A stretch of DNA of 64,000 bases from Zobellia uliginosa (GTDB taxonomy: Bacteria; Bacteroidota; Bacteroidia; Flavobacteriales; Flavobacteriaceae): NCBI RefSeq assembly GCF_900156625.1, contig NZ_FTOB01000001.1, positions 868,001-932,000 of the forward strand, read 5' to 3'. This document shows positions 3,032 to 14,676 of the stretch, in pieces. Numbering within the stretch: the stretch's first letter is position 1; the number at the start of each line of letters is the position of its first letter. A program made the position numbers and the translations under genes. The notes below the pieces were generated by a model. It was not told where the DNA came from, did no database searches, and was given only the letters and a program-made list of their open reading frames with translations.

Positions 3032-4312
3032 TTAAGAAATCTTGTCCATCTTCCCTTTAATTTCCTTTAAACACAAATTCCCTAAACTACCTTCATGGGT
3101 ATGATGAATGTCGCGTTTTGGACTAAAGGTGCCTTCCTGGATTTCCATCCCCATTTTTTTGTAGGCGTCCCTAAAGGGCATGCCGCTCTGTACGAGTTCG
3201 TTCAGTGTATCAACACTAAAGAGGTAGTCGTATTTGGGGTCTTCCAATATGCCCTTGTTTACCTGCATTTCCTTAAGGCTAAAAGTCAATATTTCCAAAC
3301 AGGCCTTCATGTCTTGAATGGCCGGAACGATAATTTCCTTCACCAATTGTAGGTCGCGGTGGTAGCCACTGGGCAGGTTGTTGATCACCAGGGTCAACTG
3401 GTTCGGAATGCTCTGTAGCTTGTTGCACTTTCCTCGAACCAATTCAAAAACATCGGGGTTCTTTTTGTGGGGCATAATGCTGCTACCGGTCGTCAACTCG
3501 TCGGGGAAGGATACGAAGTTGAAATTTTGGCTCATGTATAGGCAGATGTCCATGGCTAGTTTGGATAAGGTCGCAGCTATGTTCGCCATACCAAATGCGG
3601 TAGCTTTTTCTACCTTGCCCCGGCCCATTTGGGCGGCGACAACGTTGTATTTCAAGGTTTCAAAGCCCATTTCTTGGGTCGTAAAACTACGGTCTATGGG
3701 GAAGGAACTTCCGTAACCCGCAGCGCTGCCAAGCGGATTCTGGTCGGCCACTTTATAGGCGGCATCGACAAAGTATAGGTCGTCTATCAAACTTTCGGCA
3801 TAGGCCGATAACCATAGGCCGAATGATGACGGCATGGCAATTTGCAGGTGCGTATAACCGGGCAACAAAACGTCTTTGTATTTTTCGGCCAGCTGCAACA
3901 ACAAATCGAAAAGCTCTTTTGTGCCCGATTTTATTTCCGAAAGCTCGTGTTTTAGGTAGAGGTGCATGGCCACCAAAACTTGGTCGTTTCTTGATCGTGC
4001 AGTGTGTATTTTTTTACCGGTATCGCCCAATTTTTCCGTGAGTACGTACTCGATCTTCGAGTGCATGTCCTCAAAGGAATCCTCGATTACAAACTCGCCC
4101 TTTTCAATGGTTTCGGCAATGGCATCCAATTCTTTGACCAAGTCCGAGGTTTCCTCATCGGTCAACAATCCTATTTTGCCCAGCATCTTGGCGTGGGCCT
4201 GCGAGGCGATTACGTCGTATTTTGCCAAGTGTAAATCGAGTTCACGGTCGTTTCCAACGGTGAAATGGTCTATTTTTTTATCGGTACTAAAGCCTTTGTC
4301 CCAGAGTTTCAT
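3032..4312 (-). CDS. argH: Argininosuccinate lyase
   Basis: 426 residues. It performs the last step of arginine synthesis, splitting argininosuccinate into arginine and fumarate in the cytosol. The fumarase/aspartase superfamily signature GSSIMPHKKNPD is at about residues 276-287 and carries the flexible-loop catalytic Ser. The motif TARSRNDQ near residue 105 and the HTHEGSLGNL tail are also visible. It is slightly shorter than the usual 450-460 residues. It is the last biosynthetic gene of the operon and is separated from argE by a broken four-helix-bundle gene, so its expression depends on read-through of that insert. The ATG at 4312 is unambiguous. Confidence 0.96.
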   Translation of the reverse strand: MKLWDKGFSTDKKIDHFTVGNDRELDLHLAKYDVIASQAHAKMLGKIGLLTDEETSDLVKELDAIAETIEKGEFVIEDSFEDMHSKIEYVLTEKLGDTGKKIHTARSRNDQVLVAMHLYLKHELSEIKSGTKELFDLLLQLAEKYKDVLLPGYTHLQIAMPSSFGLWLSAYAESLIDDLYFVDAAYKVADQNPLGSAAGYGSSFPIDRSFTTQEMGFETLKYNVVAAQMGRGKVEKATAFGMANIAATLSKLAMDICLYMSQNFNFVSFPDELTTGSSIMPHKKNPDVFELVRGKCNKLQSIPNQLTLVINNLPSGYHRDLQLVKEIIVPAIQDMKACLEILTFSLKEMQVNKGILEDPKYDYLFSVDTLNELVQSGMPFRDAYKKMGMEIQEGTFSPKRDIHHTHEGSLGNLCLKEIKGKMDKIS

Positions 4313-4335
4313 TTTTTAAGTTATAAGTTTTAAGG

Positions 4336-4349
4336 TTATAGTTAAAAGT
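4336..4349. repeat. Left arm of a 14-bp perfect inverted repeat around the four-helix-bundle gene
   Basis: TTATAGTTAAAAGT here is the exact reverse complement of ACTTTTAACTATAA at 4707-4720. The match continues imperfectly for about 10 more bases outward. This arm overlaps the ancestral stop codon of the four-helix-bundle gene. A third copy stands alone at 25204-25217. Confidence 0.7.
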
Positions 4350-4698
4350 CACTATACTTTTTGATTAGGGTAAATGTCATTCTTTGGATTTCATCGCATA
4401 AGCTAAAAGTATCTTCTAAATCTTCTTCAGATAGAAATCCGATTCTTTTGGATAATTCCAATTATGTTTTTAGTTCATTCATAGATCCGTTCGAGATTTC
4501 TAAAAAACTCCTAAATGCCTTTTTTGATTTTCTCCCCGTACCTTCCGCGATATTGCTCGGTATGGAAACGGCACATCTTCGAATTTGACTCGTAAAGCCA
4601 AATTTTTCCTCCGGAGGAAAAGAAGCCGTCAAGGTATAAACTTTTTCAACTAGGACCATCGATTTTTGCCAAACAATAAGCTCCTTGTAATTATACAT
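4342..4698 (-). pseudogene. Four-helix-bundle protein (23S rRNA IVS/S23 family) interrupted by an in-frame stop
   Basis: The frame from ATG 4698 encodes MYNYKELIVWQKSMVLVEKV and the family hallmark SIPSNIAEGTGR, then stops at TAA 4462-4464 after 78 residues. The same frame continues without shift as LELSKRIGFLSEEDLEDTFS to TAA 4342-4344. That gives 118 codons in all, the usual family length of about 118-120. The stop sits where relatives have Gln or a similar residue (ELETQL-like context), so one CAA-to-TAA change would explain it. Members bind nucleic acid or are found in 23S rRNA intervening sequences; their role is poorly known. It is inserted between argE and argH and flanked by a 14-bp inverted repeat. 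It could still give a truncated protein. Confidence 0.8.
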
Positions 4699-4706
4699 TT
4701 CTACTA

Positions 4707-4720
4707 ACTTTTAACTATAA
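4707..4720. repeat. Right arm of the 14-bp inverted repeat around the four-helix-bundle gene
   Basis: ACTTTTAACTATAA is an exact inverted copy of 4336-4349. It lies between the four-helix-bundle start and the argE stop. A direct copy followed by the same bases (ACT) is at 25204-25217. Confidence 0.7.
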
Positions 4721-4728
4721 ACTTAGTA

Positions 4729-5793
4729 CTACAAAAGAAATCCTTTTAATAATTTAATGTACAAATCTATACCGTCTTCAATTTCCTTTACATATATAAA
4801 TTCATCGGCAGAATGCGAACGGGTACTATCGCCAGGACCCAATTTCAACGATTGGCAGCTTAAGGCCGCTTGGTCGGAGAGTGTAGGCGAGCCGTAGGTC
4901 TTTCTTCCCAAGGCGATTCCCGACTGCACTAAAGGGTGGTTTATATCAATGGCCGAAGAGTTCAGTTTTAAAGAGCGCTCCTTTAGTTCGCAAGGTGCTT
5001 CCTTTTTTAAGATTTCGGCAATTTCACCATTCGTATATTTATCGTTTACCCTTACATCTATAACCAAGTCTACCTGTGCAGGAACTACATTGTGTTGGGA
5101 TCCTCCGTTAATTTGCGTGACCGTTAATTTTACCGGTCCGAGTGCGTCGGAAACCCTGTCGAACTTATAATTTTTAAACCACTCCAAAACTTCTATGGTG
5201 TTGTAAATGGAGTTGTTGTCGTTCGGATGTGCGGCATGCGAAGGTGTACCTTTGATGACTGCATCAAAAACGACCAATCCCTTTTCGGCTATGGCCAAAT
5301 CTAACAGCGTAGGTTCGCCCACTATGGCTACATCGATCTTGGGGAGGTGTGGTAAAAGTCCCCTAAGGCTATTGGGCCCTGAACTTTCTTCTTCCATAGA
5401 AGCTACCATCAAAATATTGTGGTTCAGGTTTTCTTCGGCGTAGTAGTGGGTAAAGGTAGCAATAAGGGAAACCAAGGCGCCACCTGCATCGTTACTGCCC
5501 AATCCATAGAGTTTGCCATCCTCGATATGCGGAAGGAAGGGGTCTCGCGTATAGGCCGAATTCGGTTTCACCGTATCGTGGTGCGAATTCAGAAGAAGCG
5601 TGGGCTTGTTTTTGTCAAAATGCTTGTTCACCGCAAACACGTTATTAAGGTGTCGTTTAAAGGGAATATTAAAAGCTTTGAACCAGTTTTCAATGGCGTC
5701 GGCGGTTTTGTCTTCCTCCGATGAAAACGACTGTATCGAAATCAGTTCCTTTAGTAATTCTATCGCTTTTTGCGTTAATGCTGCTTGTTCCAT
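4729..5793 (-). CDS. argE: M20-family deacylase, N-acetyl(succinyl)-citrulline/ornithine deacetylase type
   Basis: 354 residues. This is a cytosolic di-zinc amidohydrolase with the M20 motif order: LLLNSHHDTVKP (metal His and Asp), GSNDAGGAL (bridging Asp), ASMEEESSGPNS (catalytic and metal Glu pair), VGEPT, and the last metal His in TRSHSADEFI. Because the carbamoyltransferase of this operon acts on acylated ornithine, the likely substrate is N-acetyl- or N-succinyl-citrulline rather than acetylornithine; that is inference from context. It starts 2 bases after the argB stop, so the two are translationally close. Confidence 0.9.
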   Translation of the reverse strand: MEQAALTQKAIELLKELISIQSFSSEEDKTADAIENWFKAFNIPFKRHLNNVFAVNKHFDKNKPTLLLNSHHDTVKPNSAYTRDPFLPHIEDGKLYGLGSNDAGGALVSLIATFTHYYAEENLNHNILMVASMEEESSGPNSLRGLLPHLPKIDVAIVGEPTLLDLAIAEKGLVVFDAVIKGTPSHAAHPNDNNSIYNTIEVLEWFKNYKFDRVSDALGPVKLTVTQINGGSQHNVVPAQVDLVIDVRVNDKYTNGEIAEILKKEAPCELKERSLKLNSSAIDINHPLVQSGIALGRKTYGSPTLSDQAALSCQSLKLGPGDSTRSHSADEFIYVKEIEDGIDLYIKLLKGFLL

Positions 5794-5795
5794 TT

Positions 5796-6569
5796 TTATA
5801 GGGTGAGGGTCGTGAATAAAGTAGATTTAGGGTCGAGCATGCCGATATCGCCAATACGTACTTGGTGTACGTTTCGCTTTAGGGCGTGAAAGCAATTTTC
5901 CATTTTCGGAAGCATGCCGTCGGCGATAATCTTTTGCTCAAGTAGGCTCTGGTATGATTGGCTATCGATGTGTTTTACCACCGATGCGTCATCGTTTACA
6001 TCCATTAAAACCCCCTTTTTTTCAAAACAATAATACAGGGTGGTCTCGTAATTTTCGCTCATGCCAATGGCCAATTCAGAGGCAATGGTGTCTGCGTTGG
6101 TGTTCAATAATTGTCCCTTTCCATCATGTGTCATGGCACAGAAAACGGGAGTAAGGCCAGCTTCCAAGAGTGTGGATACCGTTGGGGCGCTTACGCCGTC
6201 AACATCTCCGGCAAAGCCGTAATCGATATCCTTTACGGGGCGTTTATGGGCCTGAATCGTATTGCCGTCGGCGCCACTGAGTCCAATCGCGTTACAATTG
6301 AGCGACTGCAATTCGGCCACGATGTTCTTGTTTACGAGTCCGCCATAGACCATGGTAATGAGTTCGAGGCTTTGGGCGTCGGTAATGCGGCGTCCGCCGA
6401 TGAGTTTCGATTCTATGCCCAGCCTTTTGCCCAGTTGGGTGGCGAGTTTTCCGCCGCCATGGACCAAGATTTTTGGGCCTTCCCATTCGGAAAACGCCTT
6501 AAGGAACTTAGAAAGTTCTTCTTTGTTTTCGATGACGTTACCGCCTATTTTTATGATGGATAACTTCAT
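5796..6569 (-). CDS. argB: Acetylglutamate kinase (or N-succinylglutamate kinase)
   Basis: 257 residues, normal for a short, arginine-insensitive ArgB. It phosphorylates the gamma-carboxyl of N-acylglutamate, the second step of the pathway. The N-terminus MKLSIIKIGGNVIEN carries the amino-acid-kinase Lys8-x-Gly-Gly loop. KILVHGGGKLATQLGKRLG and FCAMTHDGKGQLLNTNAD are the substrate and nucleotide motifs. It lacks the N-terminal helix typical of arginine-inhibited hexameric enzymes, which fits control at the transcript level instead. It lies 4 bases from the argF' stop and 2 bases from the argE start. Confidence 0.95.
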   Translation of the reverse strand: MKLSIIKIGGNVIENKEELSKFLKAFSEWEGPKILVHGGGKLATQLGKRLGIESKLIGGRRITDAQSLELITMVYGGLVNKNIVAELQSLNCNAIGLSGADGNTIQAHKRPVKDIDYGFAGDVDGVSAPTVSTLLEAGLTPVFCAMTHDGKGQLLNTNADTIASELAIGMSENYETTLYYCFEKKGVLMDVNDDASVVKHIDSQSYQSLLEQKIIADGMLPKMENCFHALKRNVHQVRIGDIGMLDPKSTLFTTLTL

Positions 6570-6573
6570 GGGC

Positions 6574-7509
6574 TTATTGTTCCAAGATTTTTTTCAGTAC
6601 GATCTGTGCGGCATAGGTTCGGTTATTGGCCTGTTCAATGACCAGTGATCGGTCGCCGTCTAAAACGGCATCGGCCACCACAACGTTTCTTCGTACCGGT
6701 AGACAGTGCATAAATTTGGCCTTACCCACTTTTTCAGGGGTCATCGTCCAATTTTTGTCTTGGTTCAGTATTTTTCCGTAGTCGGTATAACTGCTCCAGT
6801 TCTTTACATAGATGAAATCGGCTTCTTCACAGGCTTTTTTCTGATCGTATTCAATGGTCGCCCCTTTGGTGATTTCAGGATTGAGCTCATAGCCTTCGGG
6901 ATGGGTGATCACAAAGTCGGCGTCCTGTAAATGCATCATTTCTACGAATGAATTGGCTACGGCATGCGGTAGGGCCTTCGGATGCGGAGCCCATGAAAGC
7001 ACTACTTTAGGACGTGCCTTGGTATTCTGTTCGGCCAGGGTAATGGCATCGGCCAAGGCTTGTAAAGGATGGCCTACCGAACTTTCCATATTCACGATGG
7101 GTACGGAAGCGTATTTTTTAAAACCGTTCAATACCTTTTCGGCTTCGTCTTCCTCTTTGTTCTTTAAGCCGGCGAAGGCCCTAATGGCGATAATGTCACA
7201 ATACTGCGAAACCACTTGTGCGGCCTCTTTGATATGTTCCGAAGTACCTTGGTCCATGACGGTGCCATCGGCGTATTCCAGTGCCCATCCTTCGCTTCCA
7301 AAGTTCATGACAATAACTTCCAGGCCAAGGTTCATAGCGGCTTTTTGGGTGCTTAGGCGGGTGCGGAGACTGTTGTTGAAGAACAATAGCCCAATCGTTT
7401 TGTCGGAACCTAGGTTCTTGTGCTTTTTGGGGTCTTCTTTTAGGTCTCGGGCTTCTTCCACCCAATGGTCCAATGAATCTATGTCTTGTACGGAAAGGTA
7501 ATGTTTCAT
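6574..7509 (-). CDS. argF': N-acylornithine carbamoyltransferase (acetyl- or succinyl-ornithine)
   Basis: 311 residues. It carbamoylates an N-acylated ornithine to N-acylcitrulline. The carbamoyl-phosphate loop reads NSLRTRLSTQ instead of the STRTR type of true ornithine enzymes. The C-terminal HCLPVRRNVVV replaces HCLPA, both hallmarks of the acylornithine branch. Residue 90, reported to set acetyl (Glu) versus succinyl (Pro) preference in the Xanthomonas and Bacteroides enzymes, is Ser here (TSEHIKEA, codon 7240-7242). The acyl group is therefore uncertain. It lies between proB and argB. Confidence 0.93.
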   Translation of the reverse strand: MKHYLSVQDIDSLDHWVEEARDLKEDPKKHKNLGSDKTIGLLFFNNSLRTRLSTQKAAMNLGLEVIVMNFGSEGWALEYADGTVMDQGTSEHIKEAAQVVSQYCDIIAIRAFAGLKNKEEDEAEKVLNGFKKYASVPIVNMESSVGHPLQALADAITLAEQNTKARPKVVLSWAPHPKALPHAVANSFVEMMHLQDADFVITHPEGYELNPEITKGATIEYDQKKACEEADFIYVKNWSSYTDYGKILNQDKNWTMTPEKVGKAKFMHCLPVRRNVVVADAVLDGDRSLVIEQANNRTYAAQIVLKKILEQ

Positions 7510-7567
7510 CTGTGTTCTATTTCTCTGGCTGTTTTAATTTTTTCTATGGATTTCCTTTAGTGGCCTT

Positions 7568-8344
7568 CTAAAAAGTGGCGTCCTTGGTTTTGATCTTCGT
7601 ATGCTTTCCCGATCCCCCAAGGGCATCGCTTATAAAATTGTCCTTAAGGCCGTTGACAATCCAGGTTTCAATACCGGCATTTTGGGCAATGGTAGCGGCC
7701 TCTACTTTAGATTGCATACCGCCCGTGCCGTGTGACGACTTATGCGAGCTGATCTCTTGTTGCAGGCTATCGATGCCCAAAACTTCAAAAATCGTTTCAG
7801 GTTGCCCGTTTTCAATAGAGGTTTTGGTGTAGATACCGTTGGTATTGGTAGCGATCAACAAAAGGTCGGCCTTGAGCAATGCCGCGGTCAATGCGGCAAG
7901 CTTGTCGTTATCGCCAAATTGGATCTCATCGGCGGCTACCGTATCGTTTTCGTTAATAACGGGAATAAAATTGTTGCTGGCCAAGATATCTATGGTGTTC
8001 TTGATGTTGGCCTTTGATTTCGGATTCTCAAAATCGGAGTATGATAGAAGGCACTGGGCGGCAAATAGGCCGAGTTCCCTAAAACTCTCCTGAAACATAC
8101 GCATCAGGTGGGGCTGCCCAATGGCGGCCAAGGCTTGCTTTACGTTAATATCCTCTCCGTTGTGCTCCAACTTTACGAACTGTTTGGCGGCGGCAATGGC
8201 CCCTGAGCTTACGATGATGAATTCATAGTCGTTTTTGAGCGAAGCGATCTGCCTGCCTATATCCTCTATCTTTCCCCTAGAAATCTGATCGGTTTCCTTG
8301 GTTAGGGTGTTCGAGCCTATTTTTAATAAGATCCGTTTTTTCAT
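7568..8344 (-). CDS. proB: Glutamate 5-kinase, catalytic domain only
   Basis: 258 residues. It phosphorylates glutamate for proline synthesis. The amino-acid-kinase fold is complete (MKKRILLKIGSNTLT, IIVSSGAIAAAK, NENDTVAADEIQFGDND, GTGGMQSKVEAA), but the C-terminal PUA domain of the 367-residue E. coli enzyme is missing. Short ProB proteins of this type are known in other bacteria. It is followed by argF' after 58 bases and preceded by proA after 63 bases, so proline and arginine genes are interleaved in one transcript. Confidence 0.94.
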   Translation of the reverse strand: MKKRILLKIGSNTLTKETDQISRGKIEDIGRQIASLKNDYEFIIVSSGAIAAAKQFVKLEHNGEDINVKQALAAIGQPHLMRMFQESFRELGLFAAQCLLSYSDFENPKSKANIKNTIDILASNNFIPVINENDTVAADEIQFGDNDKLAALTAALLKADLLLIATNTNGIYTKTSIENGQPETIFEVLGIDSLQQEISSHKSSHGTGGMQSKVEAATIAQNAGIETWIVNGLKDNFISDALGGSGKHTKIKTKDATF

Positions 8345-8407
8345 CGGTGTTCTGTTTCATCGTTTATGCCGAGGCGCGAATGTCGGTCAAGCGCTCGGGG
8401 CGTATTC

Positions 8408-9607
8408 TTACTTTCGGGTTTGGCCGTCTCCTTTTACATACCATTTATTGGTGACCAAATGCTGAAGTCCGATTGGGCCTCGCTGGTGCAATTTGTCGGT
8501 GCTGATGGCCAGTTCGCCTCCTAGGCCAAATTGGCCTCCGTCGGTAAAACGGGTGGAGGCGTTATGGTAGACGGCGGCCGTATCTACATTGTTCATGAAA
8601 TATTCTGCCGTCTTGCTGTTGGCGGTGATAATGGATGCGGAGTGTCCTCCGCCATAAGTGTTTATTTTAGATATGGCATCTTCGATATCGGAGCTTTGTC
8701 CGATGGCGATCTTATAATCTAAAAACTCCTCGTACCAGATTTGTTCGTCGTCTATGGTCTTTGTGCCTTCCATACCTGAAATGGCCTCGTCGGCCAGAAT
8801 TTCGACATCGCTCTTTTGCAACTCTTGTATCAAGTGTTGGAGGAATTGCTGTTTTCGGGGCAAGTCGGAAGAAACAAGTACTTTGTCCAAGGCATTGCAG
8901 GCCGATATTTTCGTCGTCTTCGCATTGATGATGATGTCTATGGCCATCTCTAGGTCGGCCTCATGATCGATGTAGACGAAGTTGTTTCCGCGTCCACTTA
9001 CAATAACGGGACAGGTAGCGTGCTCTTTTACGAAGGCGATCAGCCTTTCGCCTCCCCGTGGTACGATAAGGTCTATTTTTTGGTCGGGCTTTTCGAGAAA
9101 AGCCTGCGTTTCGGTTCTGTTGAACTGCAAATAAGTCACCCAGTCCGTGTCGGCTTCATTGGCCTCTAGGGCCTTATGCCATAAATCGACTAGGAATAAA
9201 TTGCTGTTCAACGATTCCTTTCCTCCCTTTAATAGAATTTTGTTGCCCGATTTAAAGGCGATTCCGGCCGCTTCGATGGTAACATCGGGCCTTGATTCGT
9301 AAATGATAAGGATGGTTCCGAAGGGTGCCGTTTTGTTGCTTACCTGCATGCCGTTTTCGTGGGTGAAACTAAAGCGTTCAACACCCAAGGGGTCGTCTTG
9401 TGCCGCAAGTTGCTGTAGGCTCAAGATCATGCCGTCTATTTTTTCTTGGTCGACCTTAAGGCGGTCCCTCATGGCAAGGTCATCGCCCGAATAGCTGTCC
9501 AAATCTATTTTATTGGCCGCCAAGATGGCGGTCCTTTCTTGTTCGAGCAATTGGGCCATGTCGGAAAGTACGGCGTTGCGTTGTTTTATGTCCAATAATA
9601 AACTCAT
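8408..9607 (-). CDS. proA: Glutamate-5-semialdehyde dehydrogenase (gamma-glutamyl phosphate reductase)
   Basis: 399 residues, close to the usual 415. It reduces gamma-glutamyl phosphate with NADPH to glutamate semialdehyde, which cyclises to pyrroline-5-carboxylate. The aldehyde-dehydrogenase-like nucleophile is C237 in ISACNALDKVL. ILIIYESRPDVTIEAAGIAF and FGLGGELAISTDKLHQRGP are typical ProA motifs. Its start codon shares one base with the argD stop, so the two are probably coupled in translation. It acts together with ProB encoded just downstream. Confidence 0.96.
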   Translation of the reverse strand: MSLLLDIKQRNAVLSDMAQLLEQERTAILAANKIDLDSYSGDDLAMRDRLKVDQEKIDGMILSLQQLAAQDDPLGVERFSFTHENGMQVSNKTAPFGTILIIYESRPDVTIEAAGIAFKSGNKILLKGGKESLNSNLFLVDLWHKALEANEADTDWVTYLQFNRTETQAFLEKPDQKIDLIVPRGGERLIAFVKEHATCPVIVSGRGNNFVYIDHEADLEMAIDIIINAKTTKISACNALDKVLVSSDLPRKQQFLQHLIQELQKSDVEILADEAISGMEGTKTIDDEQIWYEEFLDYKIAIGQSSDIEDAISKINTYGGGHSASIITANSKTAEYFMNNVDTAAVYHNASTRFTDGGQFGLGGELAISTDKLHQRGPIGLQHLVTNKWYVKGDGQTRK

Positions 9608-10731
9608 TACAATTCTGCTTTTAAGGCGGTGAAAAAAGTGTCTAAATGGGCTTTGGTAATATTTAAGGCGGGAAGTACGCGCAACACATGTTTGTTTTTT
9701 GCTCCCCCTGTGAATAGTTTTTGGTTGTGGATCAAGTTTTTTCTTAGGCCGGCCACCTCAAAATCGAATTCAAGGCCTAGCATAAGGCCTTTTCCCTTTA
9801 CTTTTTTGATTTGTGGGATATCTGCGGCCAAGGCCTTGAAGTAGCCTTCCAGATGGGCGGCATTTTCAATGAGTTTTTCGTCTTCCAAGACTTCCAAAAC
9901 GGCCAATGTGGCCGCACAGGCCAAATGGTTCCCCCCAAAAGTGGTGCCTAACATTCCGTGGGAAGCCTTAATGTCTTCGTGAATCAAAATACCGCCTACG
10001 GGGAAGCCGTTCCCCATACCTTTGGCCACCGAAATAATATCGGGTTGAATGTCGTGGTATTGAAAAGCAAAGAATTTACCGCTTCGGCCGAAACCACATT
10101 GTACCTCGTCTGCGATCAGTACCGTTTTATGGGCCTTGCAAAGCGATGCCACCTCTTGGTAAAACTCGGTGCTAGGTTCGTCTAGACCGCCAACCCCTTG
10201 TATGGTCTCTATGATAACGGCGCAAACATCGCCCTTTTCAATTTCCGATTGAAAGGCCTGTAAGTCGTTAAAGGGGAGAAAGGTAACCTTCTGTTGTAAA
10301 TTGATCGGTGCGTTTATCTTGGGATTGTCCGTAGCGGCAACAGCCGCGGAAGTACGCCCGTGAAATCCGTTGGTGAAGGCAATGACCCTAGATTTTCCGG
10401 TGTGGAAAGAAGCTAGTTTTAAGGCATTTTCATTGGCTTCGGCCCCTGAATTGCACAAAAACAGATTGTAATTTTCACAATTGGAAAGCTGTCCGAGTTT
10501 TGTGGCCAATTCCTCCTGCAAGGGGTTTTTTACGGAATTGCTGTAAAACCCTATTTTGTTCAACTGCTCGGTGATGCGCTTTACGTAATGCGGGTGGGAG
10601 TGGCCAATAGAGATTACGGCGTGACCTCCGTAAAAATCTAAGTATTCCTTTCCCTTGTCATCGGTTACTACTATTCCCTTTGCCGAGACTGGGGTTACAT
10701 CGTATAATGGGTAAACGTCGAATAAATTCAT
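9607..10731 (-). CDS. argD: Acetylornithine (or succinylornithine) aminotransferase
   Basis: 374 residues. A class III PLP aminotransferase that converts N-acylglutamate semialdehyde to N-acylornithine. The PLP lysine is K237 in SVAKGMGNGFPVGG. ADEVQCGFGRSG carries the cofactor-binding Asp, and TFGGNHLACAA and NSGAEANENALKLA are family hallmarks. The length is slightly shorter than the 400-residue norm. The start is ATG 10731, and the stop overlaps the proA start by one base. Confidence 0.94.
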   Translation of the reverse strand: MNLFDVYPLYDVTPVSAKGIVVTDDKGKEYLDFYGGHAVISIGHSHPHYVKRITEQLNKIGFYSNSVKNPLQEELATKLGQLSNCENYNLFLCNSGAEANENALKLASFHTGKSRVIAFTNGFHGRTSAAVAATDNPKINAPINLQQKVTFLPFNDLQAFQSEIEKGDVCAVIIETIQGVGGLDEPSTEFYQEVASLCKAHKTVLIADEVQCGFGRSGKFFAFQYHDIQPDIISVAKGMGNGFPVGGILIHEDIKASHGMLGTTFGGNHLACAATLAVLEVLEDEKLIENAAHLEGYFKALAADIPQIKKVKGKGLMLGLEFDFEVAGLRKNLIHNQKLFTGGAKNKHVLRVLPALNITKAHLDTFFTALKAEL

Positions 10732-10785
10732 AACTTTTACTATGGTGTGATGCTTGAGCCCTACACCTAATTTTAGCGAGATGTC

Positions 10786-11586
10786 CTACAACTGATTCTC
10801 TTTGATTCTACTGATTTTTTCATAGGAAGCCACAATCCCTTGGATAAGGGAGGAGCTTAGCCCCTGGTGTTCCATTTCGTTCAAACCTTGAATGGTACAG
10901 CCCTTAGGGGTGGTTACCTTGTCGATTTCCGCTTCCGGGTGGCTGCCCGATTCAATTAACAAGCTGGCAGCACCGTTACAGGTGTGCATGGCCAATTCCT
11001 GAGCTTCCTTGGCGTCGAAACCCAGTTGGATGGCACCTTGGGTCGTGGCGCGTATCAAACGCATCCAAAAGGCAATTCCGCTTGCGCAAATAACCGTAGC
11101 GGCCTGCATTTGTGTTTCGGGTATTTCCATGGAATGCCCCATACGGTTGAAAATGGCCTTGGCCAAATCGATTTTCTTTTTGCCCTTTTCGTTACTGCAG
11201 ATACAGGTCATTGACTGCCCTACCGAAATAGCGGTGTTGGGCATGCTTCTGATAATCGTGTGGTCGCTACCCAGAATGCTTTCCATTTTTGCAATGCTGA
11301 AACCGGTAATGGTAGAGATCACCACATGGTTTTCGGTAAGCAGATCCTTGGTGCTTTCCAGGATATTTTCGAGCTGACTGGGCTGCACGGCCAAAATAAG
11401 GATGTCGGAATTCTTAACGGCTTCCCGGTTGTCTGAAGTGATGGTCACATTTCCATACTTTTCATACTCTTCTATCTCGGCAGTGTTTCTCTTCGTGAGA
11501 TACATGGTCGTGGCACCGTTGGAATTTAAAATTCCCTTTGCAATGGAAAGGCCTAAATTCCCGGCTCCTATGATGGCTATTTTCAT
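10786..11586 (-). CDS. proC: Pyrroline-5-carboxylate reductase
   Basis: 266 residues from the ATG at 11586. A GTG 24 bases further upstream would add METTKISK before the Rossmann strand and is less likely. The N-terminus MKIAIIGAGNLGLSIAKG is the dinucleotide-binding motif. The C-terminal VTTPKGCTIQGLNEMEHQG matches the ProC signature for the P5C site. It makes proline from pyrroline-5-carboxylate with NAD(P)H. With ProB and ProA it completes the whole proline pathway inside the arginine operon. Confidence 0.93.
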   Translation of the reverse strand: MKIAIIGAGNLGLSIAKGILNSNGATTMYLTKRNTAEIEEYEKYGNVTITSDNREAVKNSDILILAVQPSQLENILESTKDLLTENHVVISTITGFSIAKMESILGSDHTIIRSMPNTAISVGQSMTCICSNEKGKKKIDLAKAIFNRMGHSMEIPETQMQAATVICASGIAFWMRLIRATTQGAIQLGFDAKEAQELAMHTCNGAASLLIESGSHPEAEIDKVTTPKGCTIQGLNEMEHQGLSSSLIQGIVASYEKISRIKENQL

Positions 11587-11657
11587 TTTTGATATTTTGG
11601 TTGTTTCCACTTTATGGTTGACGTAAACTTTACGCCACGGAGCTTTTTTCTTCTGTT

Positions 11658-12632
11658 CTAAAATACGCCCGCCTTAAGGTTAAGGCCAATGCCTTCGCCC
11701 AATCCGAAAATCAGGTTCATGTTCTGTACCGCCTGGCCCGATGCTCCTTTCAATAGGTTGTCTATGGCCGAGGTGATAAGCAAGGTGTTTTCATGCTTGT
11801 GCAAGTGAACGTGGCACTGGTTGGTGTTTACGATCTGTTTTAAATGGATGGGCTCTTCGGCTACCTGTGTAAACAGTGCATCTGAGTAAAACCCTTTGTA
11901 CAGGTCGATGGCTTCTTCTAGGCTGCCGTCGAATTCGGTATAGGCCGTCGCTAAGATTCCCCTTGCGAAATTACCGCGGTTCGGAAGGAAAAACAGCTCG
12001 CCCGAATCGGCTTGCAAGAATTTTAAATTCTCGTTGATCTCGCCCAAATGTTGGTGGGTAAAGGGCTTATACCAGCTAACGTTGTTGTTCCTCCAGCTGA
12101 AATGCGATGTGGCCGACGGACTAACGCCCGCACCCGTACTACCGGTAACGGCATTGATATGTACCGTATGCCCCAGTTTGTTCGCTTTGGCCAAGGGAAG
12201 GAGCCCCAGTTGAATGGCCGTTGCAAAACAACCCGGATTGGCAATGTAGCTCGCCTTTTTTATCTCGTCCTTTCTAAGTTCTGGGAGTCCGTATACAAAT
12301 TTTTTACCTTCGAAAACGGCATCGGCCTGCAACCTGAAATCGTTGCTGAGGTCTATGATCTTTGTGTTTTTCGAGAACTCGTTTTCCTGTAGGAACTTAG
12401 AAGAATTGCCGTGGCCCAGACATAGGAATACGACGTCTACATCGGGATTGATGCTTCCGGTGAATTCCATTTCGGTCGTGCCCAACAGATCGGCATGGGC
12501 CGTTGTAATTTTCTTGCCCGCCCGGGTAGTGCTGAAAACAAAATCTATTTCGGCCTCGGGGTGGTGCAGTAGAATTCGTATCAATTCCCCACCTGTGTAA
12601 CCCGAACCACCTATAATACCTACTTTAATCAT
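11658..12632 (-). CDS. argC: N-acetyl-gamma-glutamyl-phosphate reductase
   Basis: 324 residues. It reduces N-acylglutamyl phosphate to the semialdehyde. GGSGYTGGELIRIL is the nucleotide loop, and YIANPGCFATAIQLGLLPL holds the catalytic Cys (about residue 134). The sequence around HQHLGEIN is the usual C-terminal substrate region. The ATG lies 8 bases inside the end of argG, so the two are coupled. Its length and motifs are normal for the family. Confidence 0.96.
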   Translation of the reverse strand: MIKVGIIGGSGYTGGELIRILLHHPEAEIDFVFSTTRAGKKITTAHADLLGTTEMEFTGSINPDVDVVFLCLGHGNSSKFLQENEFSKNTKIIDLSNDFRLQADAVFEGKKFVYGLPELRKDEIKKASYIANPGCFATAIQLGLLPLAKANKLGHTVHINAVTGSTGAGVSPSATSHFSWRNNNVSWYKPFTHQHLGEINENLKFLQADSGELFFLPNRGNFARGILATAYTEFDGSLEEAIDLYKGFYSDALFTQVAEEPIHLKQIVNTNQCHVHLHKHENTLLITSAIDNLLKGASGQAVQNMNLIFGLGEGIGLNLKAGVF

Positions 12633-13815
12633 TACTTGGGTTTACGTGGTTATATATTTTTCCGGCGTTGGACTGTATTTTGATAAAGCCCTTGGCCTCG
12701 TCGGCCGTCCAACCTTTGTTGATTTCGCCATAGCTTCCAAAGGAGGCGTTCATTAAATCGTGTTTCGACGAAATACCGTTCAATCGGAACTGGAAGGGGT
12801 ACAATCCTACGAAAACGTCGCCCGAAACCGTTTTTTGGGTGTCGGTCAAAAAGGCTTCGATATTTCTCATTACGGCATCTAGGTAATTGCCTTCGTGCAA
12901 TAGCATTCCGTAGAAGTTGCCCTGCTGTTCTTTTTGGAACTGTTGCCACTTGGTCAAGGTATGTTTTTCCAAAAGGTGGTGGGCCTTGATAATGATCAAG
13001 GAGGCGGGGGCTTCAAAACCGACCCGACCTTTGATCCCGATAATGGTGTCGCCCACATGGATGTCGCGTCCGATGGCGTATTTAGAGGCCAGGGCATCGA
13101 GTTTAATGATGTTGTTTACAGGAGTGTCTTCTTTGTCGTCTATGGCCACAAGCTCGCCCTTTTTGAAGGTGAGTTTCACTTCGGTCGGGTTCTTTTCCTG
13201 TAACTGGCTCGGGTAGGCCGAATCGGGCAATGGTTTTTCAGAGGTCAAGGTTTCTTCCCCTCCAACGGAAGTCCCCCAAAGTCCCCTGTTGATAGAGTAT
13301 TTTGCCTTTTCCCAAGAATATTCGACACCGTTTTGTTTTAGGTATTCGATTTCTTCCTCCCGTGCCAGTTTGTTGTCCCTGATCGGGGTGATGATTTCGA
13401 TTTCAGGGGCGATGATCTGAAAGATCATATCAAAACGGACTTGGTCGTTTCCTGCACCCGTACTACCATGGGCGATATATTCGGCGCCTATTGTTTTGGC
13501 GTAGTTTACAATTTCAATGGCCTGTACGATGCGTTCGGCACTTACCGAAAGCGGATAGGTATTGTTCTTAAGGACATTGCCAAAGATGAGGTATTTTACC
13601 ACCTTGTCGTAAAAGGTTTGAACGGCGTCTATGGAAGTATATGAGCTAGCGCCCAATTGTAGGGCCTTCTCTTCGATTTCGGCAATTTCCTCCTTAGAGA
13701 AACCTCCGGTATTTACGCTTACCGCGTGTACGTCAAAACCTTTTTCCTGTGATAGATATTTAGCGCAGTACGAAGTGTCTAATCCGCCGCTGTATGCTAA
13801 AACTAATTTTTTCAT
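12625..13815 (-). CDS. argG: Argininosuccinate synthase
   Basis: 396 residues. It joins citrulline and aspartate using ATP. The N-terminal PP-loop is LAYSGGLDTSYCAKYL, and IAHGSTGAGNDQVRFD is the citrulline/aspartate site. SINRGLWG, a signature stretch, is also present. It is the second gene of the operon, after the GNAT gene and a 54-base gap, and overlaps argC by 8 bases. Confidence 0.97.
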   Translation of the reverse strand: MKKLVLAYSGGLDTSYCAKYLSQEKGFDVHAVSVNTGGFSKEEIAEIEEKALQLGASSYTSIDAVQTFYDKVVKYLIFGNVLKNNTYPLSVSAERIVQAIEIVNYAKTIGAEYIAHGSTGAGNDQVRFDMIFQIIAPEIEIITPIRDNKLAREEEIEYLKQNGVEYSWEKAKYSINRGLWGTSVGGEETLTSEKPLPDSAYPSQLQEKNPTEVKLTFKKGELVAIDDKEDTPVNNIIKLDALASKYAIGRDIHVGDTIIGIKGRVGFEAPASLIIIKAHHLLEKHTLTKWQQFQKEQQGNFYGMLLHEGNYLDAVMRNIEAFLTDTQKTVSGDVFVGLYPFQFRLNGISSKHDLMNASFGSYGEINKGWTADEAKGFIKIQSNAGKIYNHVNPSND

Positions 13816-13869: not shown

Positions 13870-14490
13870 TTATTGGTTCGTTTTCTTTTTTAGAAAAAGC
13901 GATTCTTTAATGCTTTTGAGTCTTTTGAACGCTTTGCTGTTCACTTCCTTTTTGATCACTTTTTTTTCTTTTTCCCCATCGTAGAGCATGCCGGTACAGA
14001 GGCACATTTTGCGCTCGGTACGGGTAAGGATGTCAAAATTCTTGCAGGTCTGACAGCCTTTCCAGAATTCGGGATCATCGGTCAGTTCGGAAAATGTAAC
14101 CGGTTTGTATCCGAGTTCGTAATTCATTTTCATTACGGCCAGTCCCGTGGTTATGCCGAAAATTTTGGCATCGGGGAACTTTTCCCTCGAAAGTTCGAAG
14201 ATTCTTTTTTTGATTTTTTTGGCCAATCCTTGATTTCTATAATCGGGATGGACAATAAGGCCAGAGTTGGCTACGAATTTTTCGTGCCCCCATACTTCTA
14301 TATAGCAGAAGCCAGCAAACTTGTCTCCGTCTAAAGCGATAACGGCATTGCCGTTTTCCAAGCGTTTCTGAATATATTCCGGTGTACGCTTGGCTATGCC
14401 CGTGCCTCTTACCTTAGCGGATTCCGTAATGGTATCGCTAATGATCTGGGCGTATTTAACATGTGACTTGTTAGCAATAATTAATTTCAT
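13870..14490 (-). CDS. GNAT N-acetyltransferase with C-terminal Cys cluster, candidate N-acylglutamate synthase
   Basis: 206 residues from ATG 14490; a TTG two codons earlier is possible but unlikely. The GNAT fold is visible, with the acetyl-CoA loop in VHPDYRNQGLAKKIKKR (about residues 80-96). The C-terminal part has four cysteines in a C-x2-C-x13-C-x-C pattern (C146, C149, C163, C165), which may bind a metal. Being the first structural gene of a complete arginine operon that otherwise lacks argA or argJ, it most likely makes N-acetyl- or N-succinyl-glutamate. This is inferred from position and fold. It follows the Arg-rich leader peptide by about 90 bases. Confidence 0.75.
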   Translation of the reverse strand: MKLIIANKSHVKYAQIISDTITESAKVRGTGIAKRTPEYIQKRLENGNAVIALDGDKFAGFCYIEVWGHEKFVANSGLIVHPDYRNQGLAKKIKKRIFELSREKFPDAKIFGITTGLAVMKMNYELGYKPVTFSELTDDPEFWKGCQTCKNFDILTRTERKMCLCTGMLYDGEKEKKVIKKEVNSKAFKRLKSIKESLFLKKKTNQ

Positions 14491-14580
14491 TGCCAAAAGG
14501 ATTTAAACTGTAAAAAATAATGAATTGTTGGTTGTTGTGCGGAAATGGACTCACCTATTCCCATGAAATATGAAACACCC

Positions 14581-14661
14581 TTACGGGCGACGGCGACGAG
14601 AAAACGGGCGAACGGGAGCAAGGTTGCTCAAGGTATTTGATATGTGTCTTTGTCCTTTCAT
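14581..14661 (-). CDS. Arg/Pro-rich leader peptide of the arginine-proline operon (attenuator candidate)
   Basis: ATG 14661-14659 opens a 26-codon frame ending at TAA 14583-14581. The peptide has six Arg (R5, R18, R22-R25) and three Pro (P16, P19, P26), and its last six residues are SRRRRP. It starts about 8 bases beyond the expected transcription start of the -7 box at 14669-14676. It ends 90 bases before the first gene of an operon that makes exactly Arg and Pro. This is the layout of ribosome-stalling leader peptides such as those for his, leu or trp. I see no strong terminator between it and the GNAT gene, so the downstream mechanism is open. Confidence 0.75.
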   Translation of the reverse strand: MKGQRHISNTLSNLAPVRPFSRRRRP

Positions 14662-14668
14662 GGAAGGT

Positions 14669-14676
14669 CAAATGTA
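14669..14676 (-). promoter_or_regulatory. -7 box TACATTTG for the arginine-proline operon
   Basis: On the minus strand TACATTTG matches TAnnTTTG exactly. Transcription would start near 14662, just before the leader-peptide ATG at 14661, giving a transcript with almost no leader ahead of the peptide. No clear TTG is present at the -33 distance. Confidence 0.6.

Follow-up and report, generated by a model that had tools for sequence, protein, structure and literature searches.

A putative attenuator of arginine biosynthesis, widespread in the Flavobacteriaceae, with an RNA hairpin pair absent from Rfam

Introduction

How is arginine biosynthesis controlled in bacteria that lack the ArgR repressor? 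The question is raised by an operon of Zobellia uliginosa (family Flavobacteriaceae) that lies on the minus strand of the window, the whole stretch of 64,000 nucleotides analysed here. A preliminary description of this DNA had named ArgR-type repression as the usual model for arginine genes. That model does not fit here, since ArgR (PF01316) was found in none of the 60 genomes searched, Z. uliginosa included, and control of the operon by ArgR was rejected on this ground. Control searches for ArgR were positive in 9 of 14 genomes, 8 of them over the cut-off. No answer to how arginine is controlled in the ArgR-less bacteria of this group was found in the open-access literature.

Attenuation by a leader peptide is a well known form of control in amino acid biosynthesis. 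The His, Leu and Thr leader attenuators contain clustered cognate codons before a stop codon and alternative RNA folds, and they end in a terminator that has a free stem and a U-tract. Strong clues to leader-peptide attenuation upstream of amino-acid biosynthesis operons have been reported in Flavobacterium psychrophilum, and the parts of that report available to us do not name arginine (PMC9723704).

Here, we describe a leader that appears to be a variant of such attenuators, judged by comparison of sequences, and that is widespread in the family. It combines a nearly leaderless peptide rich in Arg codons with a conserved pair of RNA hairpins and is a single-copy, widespread and testable candidate for ArgR-less control of arginine. 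No description of it was found in the open-access literature on leader peptides, attenuation, arginine and this group of bacteria. If the proposal is true, arginine joins the amino acids whose biosynthetic operons are under leader-peptide control, and proline genes are drawn under arginine control merely by being members of the operon. It also raises the question of what reads the near-fixed AGGUGNGUCC hairpin.

The arginine operon of Z. uliginosa

The first gene of the operon (13870..14490, minus strand) encodes a GNAT-family protein (Pfam PF00583 and PF13508), presumably an arginine-pathway acyltransferase, whose three best named matches are from Zobellia species (92-96%). It is followed on the same strand by argG, argC, proC, argD, proA, proB, argF', argB, a gene in the argE position and argH (3032..13815), identified from their ORFs, NCBIfam and Pfam. 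The gene names of the preliminary description (argG, C, D, F', B, E, H for arginine and proC, A, B for proline) hold by NCBIfam and Pfam. The product of argF' is an N-acetylornithine-type carbamoyltransferase and that of the argE position is an M20 peptidase. Like the orthologue of the first gene, argG, C, D, F', B, E and H were present in all 20 operons examined; proC was present in 18, proA in 4 and proB in 5. In three loci from small genomes of family f16 (L284, L285 and L286), the GNAT and ArgG matches share one frame of 620, 592 and 584 amino acids, respectively, which indicates a GNAT-ArgG fusion protein.

The leader ORF, its promoter and its hairpins

Just ahead of the operon lies an ORF that is currently unannotated. 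It runs on the minus strand from an ATG at 14661 to the end of a TAA at 14581 (14581..14661) and its 26 codons, which read MKGQRHISNTLSNLAPVRPFSRRRRP and then stop, include six Arg and three Pro codons, exactly as first described. Four consecutive Arg codons, CGT CGC CGT CGC (14587..14598, minus strand), form the presumed stall site, as suggested by the sequence and by the frequency of Arg at each codon among relatives. A second small ORF, with its ATG at 14564, was rejected as its frame, inspected by eye, is not kept in locus L002.

The perfect -7 promoter box claimed upstream of the leader, TACATTTG, is indeed present (14669..14676, minus strand). The ORF was said to follow it at once; the ORF is there, but a gap of 7 nt separates the box from the ATG. 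According to the accessible part of the F. psychrophilum report, a TAnnTTTG box occupies positions -12 to -5 in that bacterium (PMC9723704). By analogy with this box position, transcription is predicted to start near 14664, which would leave a 5' UTR of about 3 nt. Counted with a loose box (TANNTT[TA][GA]) and an allowed spacing of 4-10 nt, 117 of 174 loci have an ATG 5-9 nt past a box of the -7 type, and promoter and start were assigned in these 117. With the box at -12 to -5, transcription in the 117 loci would begin 1-5 nt ahead of the leader start codon.

The leader RNA contains three hairpins, all on the minus strand. Hairpin H1 (14616..14629), GAGCA...TGCTC, lies inside the ORF. Hairpin H2 (14576..14589), CGCCC-GUAA-GGGUG, carries the leader stop codon in its loop and is followed by a U-rich linker. 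Hairpin H3 (14541..14562), GGGAAU-A-GG-UGAGU-CC-AUUUCC, has the apex AGGUGNGUCC.

Conservation and translation of the leader ORF

Loci for comparison were gathered by searching with the first-gene protein, which gave 80 loci in named genomes and others in relatives and in the order, and from hits of an RNA model. A total of 228 loci were examined, 226 of which contain the first gene, and 192 were left after removal of identical leaders. These 192 distinct loci are not a neutral sample, as they were fetched partly by the first-gene protein and partly by the RNA model. Arg-Pro-stop is found 60-155 nt before the first gene in 172 of them, compared with a mean of 3.4 and a maximum of 7 in 50 base shuffles. 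It was found in no locus on the other strand and in none of 191 loci in an interval 195-290 nt upstream. Among leaders fetched through the first gene alone, 99 of 103 distinct ones have the H2 core.

The remaining 20 of the 192 loci comprise six with Arg-Pro and a lost stop, two with Arg-Thr and 12 without a recognised element (L107-L110, L159, L162-L166, L168 and L169). In the six stop-lost loci (L101, L106, L134, L136, L139 and L236), the peptide is extended by a few codons (e.g., RRPLG... or VRPFG...) and both H2 and the H3 apex are retained; this loss of the stop counts against an attenuator. The two Arg-Thr loci are L093, where the stop is lost too, and L213.

Codon statistics were obtained from 174 loci selected by a pattern that required the H3 apex and a CGNCC core, which fixes both the apex and Arg-Pro in advance. 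The 18 loci outside this set are the 12 without the element and L093, L104, L167, L213, L216 and L235, which have other forms. A stop directly follows Arg-Pro in 168 of the 174 loci (TAA in 147, TAG in 20 and TGA in 1). When loci are weighted by similarity, Arg makes up 25.4% of the last 12 codons before the final Arg-Pro in frame vs 4.1% and 5.4% in the other two frames, and stops make up 0.0% vs 5.1% and 2.7%. In the 12 codons further upstream, in-frame Arg falls to only 1.9% (weighted). Pro is at 13.1% in frame vs 12.3% in one of the other frames. Arg is found at codon -3 in 91% and at codon -4 in 59% of weighted loci (Arg at codon -2 belongs to the pattern that selected the loci), and the Arg codons are spread over -3 to -12 at positions that drift between loci. 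CGC or CGT accounts for 91% (weighted) of the Arg codons at -3 to -12, compared with 85 of 210 Arg codons in 18 genes of the window. This bias fits sensing of one tRNA-Arg species, and the C-rich RNA may contribute to it.

Translation of the ORF is also supported by the way in which it changes. In 36 disjoint pairs of loci, 104 of 290 changed codons were synonymous (0.359), compared with 0.236 +/- 0.022 in a position-shuffled null, the highest of 200 shuffles being 0.310. The excess lies mainly towards the end (of the changed codons, 68 of 232 are synonymous from codon 2 to codon -8 and 36 of 58 in the next five codons), which counts against an attenuator. On a tree of the first-gene protein, codon -3, which is outside H2, requires 27 changes between Arg synonyms vs 8 changes of amino acid, and the stop codon requires 12 changes among stops vs 6 between a kept and a lost stop. 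Beyond the Arg cluster and the end, the leader sequence drifts strongly. By this comparison, the leader ORF looks real and translated. The view that an Arg run and a Pro codon at the stop are hard to get by chance is borne out by the 172 loci, by the confinement of Arg clustering to one frame and by the synonymous excess. Comparison of upstream regions, which had been suggested as a check, gave clustered Arg codons among drifting neighbours, and most of the distinct loci have the Arg-Pro-stop end.

Conservation of the RNA hairpins

Hairpin H1 recurs with differing letters in several of 17 folded loci, and the mean fold z of its region is -1.44 +/- 0.12 over 111 non-redundant loci. The form of H2 in the family is CGCCC-GUAA-GGGU[G/A], with the last Arg and Pro codons as its 5' arm, and a typical H3 is GGAAAU-A-GG-UGNGU-CC-AUUUCC. 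Among 100 loci for which the H2 core was the sole criterion of choice, seven positions of the H3 apex are invariant; in loci not in this set (L216 and L235), the apex may begin with C. The distance from H2 to the apex is 30-36 nt, and 32-33 nt in 140 of the 174 loci.

Covariation was examined in 41 of the 100 loci, hand-picked for diversity. Across them, 94.5% of cells pair. Double-sided changes occur at six pairs, all in H3, and amount to 27 cells vs 8.5 +/- 2.0 in shuffled alignments, none of 500 shuffles reaching 27. H2 is nearly invariant in this set, and its outermost pair is absent in 12 of 39 loci. Elsewhere H2 has been rebuilt: as CGCAC/GUGCG in L093 and L213, where the Pro codon becomes Thr, and as AGGCC/GGUCU (L272 and L274) or AGACC/GGUCU (L273) in genus g49, probably Flavobacterium. 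In these three g49 loci the ORF ends ...NRRRFRP-stop, and its last Arg codon is AGG or AGA. The letters, the codon family and even the Pro residue vary in the rebuilt hairpins; the pairing of H2 and the Arg codon are what is kept. Much of H2 is altered in L093, L213 and g49, and part of the apex is altered in g49 as well.

A search of Rfam gave no match over the leader, neither at the gathering score nor at E<=10. The H2/H3 element is thus absent from Rfam. A possible complementarity of the near-fixed apex to the 3' tail of 16S rRNA was dropped as a lead because it follows largely from the GG..CC symmetry and is broken in the g49 variants. The apex pattern AGGTGNGTCC has 27 copies in the genome, the leader's own included, vs 5 for the reversed pattern. 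These copies were not accepted as further elements: the 12 that were inspected by eye sit in stop-free frames of 234-736 codons and have no H3 stem.

Distribution of the element

Genomes were searched with a covariance model of H2-H3 (R1); the filters used for searches of more than 40 genomes lose weak matches. The genome of Z. uliginosa has a single strong match of 74.1 bits, the next scoring 15.5. The model matched 216 of 349 genomes of the family (155 of 237 genera), 22 of 296 in an even draw from the order, and 6 of 345 from the class, all six within the same family. In the order, 21 of the 22 matches have the first gene and argG as neighbours; the exception, L140 (23.5 bits), has no operon gene on its locus and is taken as chance. 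The second hit of genome G705 (L289, 27.4 bits), with no H3 apex in 401 bases and no operon gene, is likewise taken as chance. The hits fetched at E<=0.01 numbered 91, and 88 of them are on a locus with an orthologue of the first gene, the others being L140, L289 and L211. In one genome (G776, L211), the leader, H2 and H3 are kept and a different protein, possibly another acetyltransferase, replaces the first gene, with argG next.

Some of the distribution counts against an attenuator. The filtered search gave no match in 133 of the 349 family genomes, and in 8 of the 9 g49 loci that were read, the first gene is present but the element is missing. Outside the family, L107-L110 have the first gene, and the element was not found there.

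Arginine or proline as the signal

As a conserved leader with clustered Arg codons heads the operon, charged tRNA-Arg is likely its signal, and sensing of Arg is well supported by comparison. This agrees with the preliminary description, in which charged tRNA-Arg was to set expression of the whole operon. Its further suggestion of tRNA-Pro as a second signal is not supported: few operons contain proA or proB, Pro in frame barely exceeds Pro in one other frame, and the leader ends in Arg-Thr in L093 and L213. The Arg-Pro end is present in L259 and L265, where no pro gene was found (in L253, the leader end was not read), and the CC of the Pro codon forms part of H2. Proline synthesis had also been thought to share arginine control. 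This would hold in Z. uliginosa, where proC, proA and proB are in the operon; among the 20 operons examined, proA is present in 4, proB in 5 and proC in 18. The proline genes look like passengers in the operon of this genome.

Proposed mechanism

We consider it likely that the arginine operon is controlled by ribosome-mediated attenuation in its 5' leader. Transcription would begin just ahead of the ATG of a short ORF that ends in a CGC/CGT Arg cluster and Arg-Pro-stop. When charged tRNA-Arg is scarce, the ribosome would stall in the Arg cluster, its leading edge would cover the 5' arm of H2, and with H2 blocked, expression of the genes from the acyltransferase and argG to argH would continue. 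When Arg is plentiful, the ribosome would proceed to the stop codon, which lies in the loop of H2, and then depart. H2 would refold beside H3, and the H2-H3 unit would shut expression, most likely by halting or destabilising the transcript ahead of the first gene. The proline genes of this genome would follow along as passengers.

The ORF and its translation signature, the clustering of Arg, H2, H3, their spacing, the link to the operon and the promoter geometry (117 of 174 loci) are supported by comparison of genomes. Stalling, its direction and the step at which output is set (an intrinsic terminator, Rho-dependent termination or RNA decay) are what we infer. Sensing of ribosome position at the Arg codons is the best-supported mechanistic step.

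Several observations bear on the output step. H2 overlaps the last codons and the stop, and no fold that competes with it was found. With five base pairs and a broken U-rich tail, it scores as a weak terminator, which counts against an attenuator, and a ribosome positioned at the stop would mask it. U-rich sequence follows H3 in only 64 of the 174 loci, a group that excludes the Zobellia type, and this too counts against an attenuator. Over the 174 loci, a conserved intrinsic terminator that ends in a good U-tract was found at neither H2 nor H3. Seven duplex tests among the ORF, H2, the linker, H3 and downstream sequence found no conserved antiterminator pairing beyond that of shuffles (mean z -0.10 to +0.42); a signal came only from inside the ORF (z -0.73) and from the region of H1 (z -1.44). 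Finally, the near-fixed apex of H3 exceeds what a plain terminator needs, which is a further point against. A less probable extension is that H2-H3 is more than a plain attenuator hairpin and acts as a dedicated receptor, whose ligand would be arginine, a protein or the terminating ribosome and which would be read jointly with the leader peptide. In such a composite arginine sensor, charging of the tRNA would decide whether H2 forms, the near-fixed apex of H3 would be a second input, and the whole would replace ArgR in one family.

Alternative explanations

Other readings of the leader shift the sensor from the codons to the RNA or to the peptide. H2/H3 might itself be the sensor, either as an aptamer that binds arginine or some related metabolite or as a protein-binding site, with the ORF merely keeping ribosomes near. 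The seven invariant apex positions, the nearly fixed H2-H3 spacing and the persistence of H2 and apex in the six stop-lost loci speak for this reading. It leaves the in-frame clustering of Arg and the synonymous drift outside H2 unexplained, and the alteration of much of H2 in L093, L213 and g49, with part of the apex in g49, speaks against it; we regard it as unlikely. The nascent chain might instead be the sensor. TnaC, SpeFL and the fungal arginine attenuator peptide stall ribosomes through the nascent chain in a ligand-dependent manner, and TnaC ends in Arg-Pro-stop. By analogy, once free arginine or ornithine has bound, ...RRRRP in the exit tunnel would stall the ribosome at Pro-stop, a reading that fits the prevalence of Arg-Pro-stop, its likeness to the end of TnaC and the 12 changes among stops that outnumber the 6 losses. 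The pairing of H2 also dictates Arg-Pro, though, and where H2 is re-paired the Pro gives way to Thr; because the final Pro can be Thr, we rate arrest less likely and give it a low probability. The upstream Arg codons moreover drift in position, as is typical of codon sensing, six Arg-Pro loci have lost the stop, and the conserved part of the peptide is its Arg-rich end only.

The ORF might also have no part in sensing. If it encoded a small functional protein with no role in controlling the operon, this would account for the signature of purifying selection. Its sequence drifts strongly apart from the Arg cluster and the end, it goes with a single operon, and a structured RNA overlaps it, which makes this reading very improbable. 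That the ORF arose by chance in a C-rich stretch is hardly credible: H2 pairing partly forces the Arg-Pro end, yet the synonymous excess, the in-frame Arg codons, the changes on the tree and the count of Arg-Pro-stop all contradict it.

Relation to known leaders

Compared with the His, Leu and Thr attenuators, the arginine leader is alike in its cognate codons clustered ahead of the stop. It is unlike them in that its stop lies in the loop of a conserved hairpin and that a second hairpin with a near-fixed apex is present.

Arg codons in leader ORFs are known from two other systems, and by the available parts of their reports neither speF nor rbf is an arginine-synthesis operon (PMC6386406; PMC13009471). 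In the speF leader of Salmonella, consecutive Arg codons of orf34 (SpeFL) sense arginine (PMC6386406). Unlike the arginine leader, it controls ornithine decarboxylase, has two Arg codons in the middle of the ORF, and acts, as shown there by experiment, through Rho and RNase G (PMC6386406). In Staphylococcus aureus, the Arg codons of the leader ORF rbfL sense restriction of arginine (PMC13009471). As far as that report was available, these are the rare AGA and AGG, the ribosome-binding site of a biofilm regulator is blocked, and shortage represses rather than induces (PMC13009471).

A further likeness in form is Bacteroid-trp (RF01692), the trp leader of Bacteroidetes, which also has a short ORF, a cluster of regulating codons and a start a few nt past a -7 box. 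It differs in its Trp codons, in an ordinary hairpin with a T-run and in having no H2/H3 pair with a fixed apex. RF01692 gave no match over the arginine leader; its hit over the cut-off lies elsewhere in the Z. uliginosa genome (G000:C22:221228-221343, L182; 64.5 bits). This trp leader reads MNRNNVNTWWWNNS, with three consecutive Trp codons, starts 5 nt past a TATATTTG box and continues into a hairpin and T-run. Its geometry is similar to that of the arginine leader, for which it is an in-genome comparison.
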